From Thermoplasmata archaeon (GTDB taxonomy: Archaea; Thermoplasmatota; Thermoplasmata; Thermoplasmatales; Thermoplasmataceae): a stretch of DNA of 64,000 nucleotides. The first letter of the stretch is position 1; each line of letters opens with the position of its first letter. The DNA lies in contig JAJZXB010000001.1 of assembly GCA_021846395.1 (NCBI GenBank), positions 124,001 through 188,000 of the forward strand, read 5' to 3'. Of this stretch, positions 2,071-3,663 are shown piece by piece. A model generated the notes under the pieces. It was not told where the DNA came from, did no database searches, and worked only from the letters and a program-made list of their open reading frames with translations. Both the position numbers and the translations under genes were made by a program.

Positions 2071-3252
2071 TTACTGGCTAATTTTTTCACTTACCATTGA
2101 TTCCACATATGCTCCTGCATTGAAAATTGCAACAGTATCACCAATTTCAGGTTCTGGAATATATATCCCTGAAGCTATTCTATCAGTATTTTCACATATT
2201 TGTCCTGTCACATCAGCCATGAAGTTTGCCTCCTGATTGACTTTATTTGCAATTATTAAATGATGGTATGCACCGTACAATGCAGGTCTCAAAAGAATAT
2301 TCATTCCCGCATCTGTACCAACATAATTCAATTCCTGTTTTTTTATGTCCAAGACAGTTCCAGGAAGAACGCCAGAATTGGCAACTATGTATCTACCCGG
2401 CTCTATAACCAGTTCCGGTATTTTATATCTTGCATCTATAAAATTTGATTTAAACGCTTTGTATACATTTTCAGCAACTTTCTTTATATCAAGTTTCTTC
2501 TCATTGATCCTATAGGGAATGCCAAACCCTCCTCTGATATCCACGTATTCAAAAACTATTCCAAGTGTTTTCTGGAACTTTACCGCAATTTCAGAGATAT
2601 CTGAAGCCACTCCGAAAAAATGTTCAGGTTCAGCAACAATGGATCCAACCATAATCTGTATTCCAAATCTTTTGCACCCATTTTCCATTGCAATTTTATA
2701 TCCTTCAAGTGCTTGATCTGGCAGTTCCCTAAATTTTGCACCGATTCCAGATGTTGTTAATCCCATGAACTGGCCTCTGCCATAGTCAGTTTTTATTCTA
2801 AAACCAGTAATTTTCGGACTTTCCCATCGAGGATTTTCAACTGGCCAAGAGAATCAAAATTTATTCCAGCTCCGGCCCGGATGGCAATATCAAACTCATC
2901 CTTTGAAATGTTATTACCTGTAAATGAAATTTTATTTCCAGTAATACCTGCCATTAAGGACATTGCAATTTCATTTATTGATGATGTGACCGTTCCGCAC
3001 CCCAATTTTTTGATAATTTGAAAAATATGTGGATTGTTATTTGATTTAACAGCATACTTTATACTGGATTTCTCAAAAAATTTAGAAAAGGAGGATTCAA
3101 GCTCCCTTACATTGTTTTCAATTTTTTTCTGGAATAAACAATCAAAGTGGGTTCCTTATTTTTTTTGCGAGATTGTCGAGGCCATAATCTTCCATAAAAA
3201 AATGGCTTTCTTTTTCTGTGAGATCTTCAGGAATATATTGTTTCATAAACAT
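2071..3252 (-). pseudogene. broken diaminopimelate-decarboxylase-like (LysA/ODC group IV) gene
   Basis: Pieces in different frames together make a fold type III PLP decarboxylase. The N-terminus (ATG at 3252, reads MKQYIPEDLTEKES) is followed by a shift in an A8 run near 3160 and another in an A7 run near 3133. Then come YAVKSNNNPHIF (PLP lysine) and FTGNNISKDEF up to a stop at 2793. A further shift near 2810-2820 restores FRIKTDYGRGQFMG, VDIRGGFGIPY, EPGRYIVANSG and GDTVAIFNAGAY to the stop at 2071. Another possible shift near the end would carry the frame to about 2022, meeting the convergent gene. Three or more separate lesions make it unlikely that a working enzyme is made unless the sequence has indel errors in A/T runs. 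In working relatives the enzyme decarboxylates diaminopimelate, ornithine or similar amino acids. Confidence 0.8.
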
Positions 3253-3381
3253 GGAGCCGGAGTGGCATTATTAATTTTTCTTAATAAATTGATTAAATAT
3301 GCATATTAAATCTTATTAAATTTCTATCATTTGATAGTTCCAAAGGTAAGCTTTTAAAAGATAATGCAATAATGTATATGC

Positions 3382-3391
3382 CTTATAAAAA
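3382..3391 (+). promoter_or_regulatory. TATA box for candidate RNA
   Basis: cttataaaaa in otherwise mixed sequence, about 25 bases before the inferred RNA start near 3408-3416. No start codon with a useful reading frame follows at the right distance, which is why a non-coding transcript is suspected. Confidence 0.4.
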
Positions 3392-3407
3392 GTATAGCTG
3401 ATTTATG

Positions 3408-3590
3408 ATTCTATATGACGACGTAAGGCGTTTAGCTGGTATGGCTTTAAATGGGCTTCGAATTCAGCTGATGGCGTGTCACCTTGCAATTAAAATTCGA
3501 TCAGAAGTCAGACCAAGAATTCCCTGTGGGTCAGGAAATTATGAAACGTGATTAATTTCCGTTAAACCAGGGAAAAGAAATTTTTTTTGA
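3408..3590 (+). ncRNA. candidate structured small RNA, unknown class
   Basis: This roughly 410-base gap between the broken decarboxylase and the enoyl-CoA hydratase holds no convincing reading frame but has RNA-gene architecture. There is a TATA box at 3382-3391 and locally higher G+C than its flanks. A nested hairpin near the 3' end has an outer stem TTCCCTG (3520-3526) pairing with CAGGGAA (3568-3574) and an inner stem GGAAATTA (3534-3541) pairing with TAATTTCC (3553-3560) around an 11-base loop. A T8 run at 3581-3588 follows and could be the terminator. It does not show the conserved boxes of SRP RNA or RNase P RNA that I know, and a tRNA-like look around 3430-3465 does not fold into a full cloverleaf. 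Class and function are unknown. Confidence 0.4.
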
Positions 3591-3663
3591 ATTTATAGGC
3601 AATTATTTCGCATAATTTTTTCCAAAGGCAATTCTTAATATATGGTATAATTTTACATTAAAT

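Follow-up and report, generated by a model that had tools for sequence, protein, structure and literature searches.

The archaeal H/ACA guide RNAs gathered in the Rfam family HgcG (RF00064; Pab40/Pf7/Afu4) are the closest described relatives of the element analyzed here. According to the part of PMC2584109 that deals with them, Pf7 carries three hairpin motifs and has Pab40 as its homolog, and Pab40 and Afu-4 made the helix-69 pseudouridine (E. coli position 1915) in vitro. In the corresponding part of PMC4652768, Pab40 hairpin 3 is assigned L2016 as its target. For the Haloferax H/ACA RNAs HP1 and HP2, a hairpin was likewise proposed for the helix-69 uridines in the same part of PMC2584109; there, a long spacer lies between the hairpins, whereas the hairpins of the element described below are adjacent. 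Parts of PMC4652768 and PMC3608112 describe the archaeal kink-loop in general terms. With regard to guide geometry, the relevant part of PMC4652768 names 10 as the productive length of the GA stem in nearly all tested cases (reported range 8-11) and 14-15 nt as the distance from pocket to ANA box. No paper on a Thermoplasma H/ACA RNA stood out in the literature searches, and an earlier prediction in Muller 2008 is possible.

The window, meaning the whole 64,000-nt stretch of DNA that was analyzed, contains an element that we propose, with a probability of about 90%, to be the gene of a ~200-nt H/ACA guide RNA, the counterpart of HgcG in this order. The gene was previously unannotated, and the HgcG-type guide as such is already a known kind. 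Conservation, covarying pairing, kink-loop and box anatomy, sub-threshold similarity of homologs to HgcG and complementarity to rRNA in a fixed register point to this reading, all at the level of sequence. An earlier note on the same DNA had proposed a structured intergenic RNA at positions 3382-3590, which is strongly supported by conservation and covariation in relatives. It had also recognized no known RNA class in it; this view is not supported, as the anatomy is that of an H/ACA guide RNA and homologs match HgcG below the Rfam cut-off. RNase P RNA and SRP RNA were rejected as identities, both being located elsewhere in the genome. The counts of guides and boxes given below refer to 49 loci, of which 38 belong to the family of the window (f1), 4 to f3, 2 to f4 and 5 to f5. 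The features are:

3378 to 3577, plus strand: whole predicted H/ACA guide RNA, HgcG/Pab40-like, three hairpins; 200 nt by alignment and model, ends approximate
3380 to 3429, plus strand: hairpin I, from the RNAalifold structure
3380-3385/3424-3429 (lower) and 3392-3397/3411-3416 (upper), plus strand: stems of hairpin I
3400-3408, plus strand: kink-loop of hairpin I, GA-UUUAU-GA
3417-3422, plus strand: putative 3' guide of hairpin I, GACGAC, kept in 36/38 f1 loci
3438 to 3518, plus strand: hairpin II, upper stem from RNAalifold, lower stem and AGA box by eye
3438-3447/3505-3514 (lower, one mismatch) and 3459-3464/3494-3499 (upper), plus strand: stems of hairpin II
3451-3456, plus strand: putative 5' guide of hairpin II, AUGGGC, kept in 38/38 f1 loci
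3502-3504, plus strand: putative 3' guide of hairpin II, CAG
3516-3518, plus strand: AGA box of hairpin II, by eye
3520 to 3576, plus strand: hairpin III, with exact stems
3520-3526/3568-3574, plus strand: lower stem of hairpin III, TTCCCTG / CAGGGAA
3534-3541/3553-3560, plus strand: upper stem of hairpin III, GGAAATTA / TAATTTCC
3528-3533, plus strand: putative 5' guide of hairpin III, GGGUCA, kept in 38/38 f1 loci
3543-3551, plus strand: kink-loop of hairpin III, GA-AACGU-GA
3561-3564, plus strand: putative 3' guide of hairpin III, GUUA, kept in 38/38 f1 loci
3574-3576, plus strand: AAA box of hairpin III
3347 to 3358, plus strand: archaeal promoter-like motif made up of a BRE-like AAG and a TTTTAAAA box, from positional conservation in 49 loci
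3581 to 3588, plus strand: T8, possible terminator, not conserved

The gap is free of reading frames, as had been claimed, with zero ORFs of at least 60 aa on both strands across 3310-3602, and the two nested stems now assigned to hairpin III lie exactly at the positions first given for them. The combination of promoter, structure and terminator had been judged to exceed the expectation for an A/T-rich spacer. This could not be upheld on the lone sequence: the 186-nt plus-strand fold reached a z of -0.62, with 57 of 200 shuffles folding at least as well, and the motifs are common, the window holding 13 overlapping matches to T8 on the plus and 5 on the minus strand, and 15 and 18, respectively, to the TATA-like string TTATAAAA. 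A chance structure within A/T-rich spacer would fit this z value taken by itself, but conservation across the order together with covariation makes such an origin exceedingly improbable, and it is conservation and compensatory change that set the element apart from chance.

A search of 61 genomes (the own genome and relatives) with the spacer DNA yielded matches at E<=0.1 in 35, many of them short. Matches at E 3.1e-5 or better occurred in 18 genomes, including the own genome; the alignment spanned the full query in this genome and one relative (G001), and fell within query positions 127-338 in the other 16. The alignment used for the consensus structure comprises 17 sequences of ~200 nt, from which the covariance model R1 was built. 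Of the order's 117 genomes, 88 gave an R1 match at E<=0.5; in 87 the match stood at E<1e-5, with one strong copy apiece. Within f1, 70 of 77 genomes matched (E<1e-20 in 69 and 0.106 in the remaining one), and the seven genomes without a match have a completeness of 62-87%. Outside f1, matches were detected in 18 of 40 genomes (f3, f4 and f5; E 4.8e-15 to 5.3e-6), with a second weak match (E 0.07-0.24) in three f3 genomes. Additionally, a pattern scan of a genome collection gave mostly bacterial chance matches among those listed, and Ferroplasma acidarmanus Fer1 was present there.

RNAalifold folded the 17 rows into a consensus of three stem-pocket-stem hairpins. Two-sided changes were found at 21 of the 31 predicted pairs and the stems are conserved, so that the check for compensatory changes in relatives suggested by the earlier note turned out positive. 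Paired cells amounted to 95.6%, as opposed to 84.3% in column shuffles, and the covariation score was reached by 0 of 500 shuffles, while for one of five measures, that of further pair types, 18 of 500 shuffles did as well as the alignment. Shifting the partners by 1-3 columns lowered the paired cells to 30-46%, a sliding control that favours the structure because the structure came from the same alignment.

Both hairpin I and hairpin III have an apical loop of the form GA-N4U-GA, which is the archaeal kink-loop motif. This pattern was found in hairpin I of 38/38 f1 loci, and a looser GA..UGA pattern in hairpin III of all 49 loci. Hairpin II carries a k-turn UGA in 34 of 38 f1 loci; it is missing in L087 and in the three loci of the genus g1 including the window; the window copy has UUA in its place. 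An ANA starting 13-16 nt from the pocket was present in hairpin III of 48/49 loci and in hairpin I of 34/38 f1, 4/4 f3 and 2/2 f4 loci; hairpin I of the window has no ANA box at this position. Hairpins I and II of the window look partly eroded. Counted by eye, the GA stems comprise 10, 10 and 11 layers in hairpins I, II and III, and the 11-layer stem therefore counts against hairpin III under the 10-layer rule.

The Rfam check that had been suggested gave a divided result: no family reaches its cut-off at the window region, where the weak matches have E values of 0.065-4, and homologs do match HgcG below the cut-off. The best of these weak matches, the eukaryotic SNORA24 (E 0.065), shares stem-pocket-stem hairpins and a box with the element, which differs in having kink-loops and three hairpins; at this score below the cut-off we claim no homology. 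Even at E 10, the HgcG model matched neither the window copy nor the two other f1 loci searched alongside it. It aligned over its full length (1-276/276) with the homologs L096 (E 3.6e-9), L095 (2.7e-6) and L100 (1.3e-4), and the scores of the f4, f3 and f5 homologs (43.5, 34.1 and 28.6 bits) lie below the gathering cut-off of 77. R1 in turn links these homologs to the window copy (L096 2.2e-13, L095 9.1e-16, L100 3.8e-7). Scanning 391 genomes of the phylum with HgcG yielded 64 matches, one of them over the cut-off and zero in this order under stricter filters, with 0 of 14 named genomes matched as control; R1 maps a conserved RNA gene in an archaeal order for which the Rfam model reported none.

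Among 30 HgcG loci inspected, 19 fit a pattern requiring GGGUCA-like and GUUA elements; 18 of these 19 have GGGUCA, and 14 have, by eye, an ACA soon past the lower stem. The element resembles HgcG in holding three H/ACA hairpins within one RNA, in its hairpin III pocket (GGGUCA/GUUA here versus GGGUUA/GUUAC in the Rfam consensus) and in the predicted helix-69 target, which is that reported for Pab40/Pf7 in the relevant parts of PMC2584109 and PMC4652768. It differs in being too diverged to pass the Rfam cut-off, in its f1 boxes, which are of the AAA/AUA/AGA type where seen, and in the five f5 loci examined, which lack hairpin I. Hairpin II also appears to differ, since its candidate target U2554 cannot equal L1932, the target reported for Pab40 hairpin 2, because the helix-69 site L2016 is located 3' of L1932. 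For Pab40 hairpin 1, the reported target is L2588, given in the same numbering.

Targets were tested in a fixed register with Watson-Crick pairs only against the rRNA of one genome (G020), the registers having been set after seeing candidates. Hairpin III (GGGUCA/GUUA, 6+4 bp) has a single site in this rRNA, 23S helix 69 at U1939, corresponding to E. coli U1915; the site occurs in 22/22 23S loci and in 1 of 3000 shuffles. A 16S match of hairpin III was rejected, being offset by one. Hairpin II (AUGGGC/CAG with three unpaired bases) also has a single site, U2570, corresponding to E. coli U2554 (22/22 loci; 11 of 3000 shuffles), in a register that was reached after several pattern searches; with two unpaired bases it has no site in G020 rRNA (13 of 3000 shuffles). 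For this hairpin, a target near E. coli 2462 was ruled out, since the 23S examined does not contain it, and U2457 was dropped because the right guides of f3 and f5 misfit by eye. Hairpin I with the f3 guides (GGAA/GACGAC) has a single site, in 17/22 loci and 2 of 3000 shuffles, with 23S U2527 (E. coli U2511) as the candidate target. The five 23S loci without this site are f5 genes, and the RNA copies in three such genomes lack hairpin I. With the f4 guides, 37 of 3000 shuffles reached a site, and the f1 version of hairpin I is not significant alone because its GACGAC guide was matched by 540 of 3000 shuffles. The E. coli equivalents were anchored on helix 69: in the E. coli 23S copy aligned, the three uridines stand at 1919, 2515 and 2558 and equal U1915, U2511 and U2554. 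A loose guide-target scan in which any offset was allowed, along with gaps and G-U pairs, gave no significant result, the observed score being reached by 36 to 144 of 150 shuffles.

The guides were further compared among families. The f3 loci have GGUCA and GUUA (4/4), the f4 loci GGGUCA with GUUU replacing GUUA (2/2), and the f5 loci GGGUCA and GUUA (5/5) with a recognisable hairpin I in 0/5. The 5' guide of f1 hairpin I pairs just 1-3 bases, and for the 3' guide of f4 hairpin I the best pairing lies out of register. In helix 69, UGACCC stands in each of the 16 matches among 30 phylum genomes searched, 14 genomes being without a match; in Pyrococcus it is UAACCC at that place. These comparisons show piecewise change of a multi-hairpin guide.

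In the window copy, the predicted duplexes of hairpin I are favourable on the 5' side (-10.9 kcal/mol) and not on the 3' side (+1.2 kcal/mol), those of hairpin II weak 5' (-2.6) and strong 3' (-10.5), and those of hairpin III weak 5' (-4.0) and strong 3' (-10.0). The 5' duplexes of hairpins II and III are thus weaker than the cut-off of -6.0 given in the relevant part of PMC4652768, which was set with a different program. An H/ACA-fold RNA with a chaperone or other non-modifying role would accommodate these weak duplexes, and likewise the window copy without ANA in hairpin I and without the k-turn UGA in hairpin II; we regard such a role as very unlikely, however, as the invariant letters of the pockets are those pairing with rRNA and the predicted target of hairpin III coincides with the one reported for hairpin 3 of Pab40.

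For a modifying H/ACA guide, which we favour, we infer transcription, RNP assembly and catalysis. L7Ae would bind the kink-loops, and Cbf5, whose gene is present (301 bits), would bind the stems, pocket and ANA boxes together with Nop10 and Gar1. By base pairing, a pocket would flank a single uridine of the 23S rRNA on either side, and Cbf5 would convert this uridine to pseudouridine. Hairpin III would address the helix-69 uridine, a target well supported by the sequence comparison, while U2511 and U2554 are possible targets of hairpins I and II, respectively, assignments weaker than that of hairpin III. The prediction that follows for acidophilic archaea, and that can be tested, is of pseudouridines in helix 69, in the A-loop and in the region of 2511. 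U2511 and U2554 of the 23S are presumably pseudouridine sites in yeast. It is conceivable, though we would sooner bet against it, that an ancestral three-hairpin guide was partly retargeted (hairpins I and II to U2511 and U2554) and is decaying, f5 having lost hairpin I and the genus of the window keeping all working parts only in the helix-69 hairpin. If true, this would represent guide-RNA rewiring around one constant site.

The string at 3382-3391 that had been taken for a TATA box is present, but it lies inside hairpin I of the RNA, and the conserved promoter-like motif is found at 3347-3358 instead. With the 49 loci aligned at the RNA start, positions -31 to -29 form an A-rich triplet, with AAA in 33 loci and A at the single positions in 38-43, and a T/A-rich box spans -25 to -20. 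T8 does exist, although it starts six bases past the end of the lower stem (3574) rather than directly after it. A run of at least 6 T within 30 nt downstream occurs in 2/49 loci; as the T-run is not conserved, it is therefore a local terminator at most.

The neighbours vary among genomes; in the window they are a broken Orn/DAP decarboxylase to the left and an enoyl-CoA hydratase to the right. The decarboxylase lies in two pieces on the minus strand, 2071-2766 and 2793-3005 (together 2071-3005), the second just under the Pfam cut-off (E 0.00048), and has the appearance of either a pseudogene with a frameshift or an error in the sequence. An ORF of ~360 aa starts just downstream of the RNA in 13 of the 16 f1 loci inspected, overlapping it in two; one example is L086:398-1477 (minus strand). 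The one translated in full encodes a membrane-like protein with an HExxH motif that by eye resembles a site-2 protease. Guide RNA and ORF may be co-transcribed at those f1 loci. This close spacing, together with the HExxH motif in the one ORF translated, would fit an element that serves the downstream gene as a 5' leader or regulates it in cis, but we consider this very unlikely: the ORF is absent in the window, at L081 and L075 and from all six loci of f3-f5 that were examined, where other genes follow, some on the opposite strand, and the conserved pocket letters match 23S rRNA while homologs match HgcG.

Two further observations concern the 23S genes themselves. Near E. coli 2452-2467, these genes read AACUGAGUYGUC (L023 and other loci); for two of the 22 (G010 and G050), the stretch shown was from another place. 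Most 23S genes read AACAGGCUGAU there, and AACUGAGUYGUC is an uncommon variant next to the peptidyl transferase centre. One genome bin, G031, contains two full-length 23S matches on contigs C82 and C113 (L030 and L036), possibly due to contamination.
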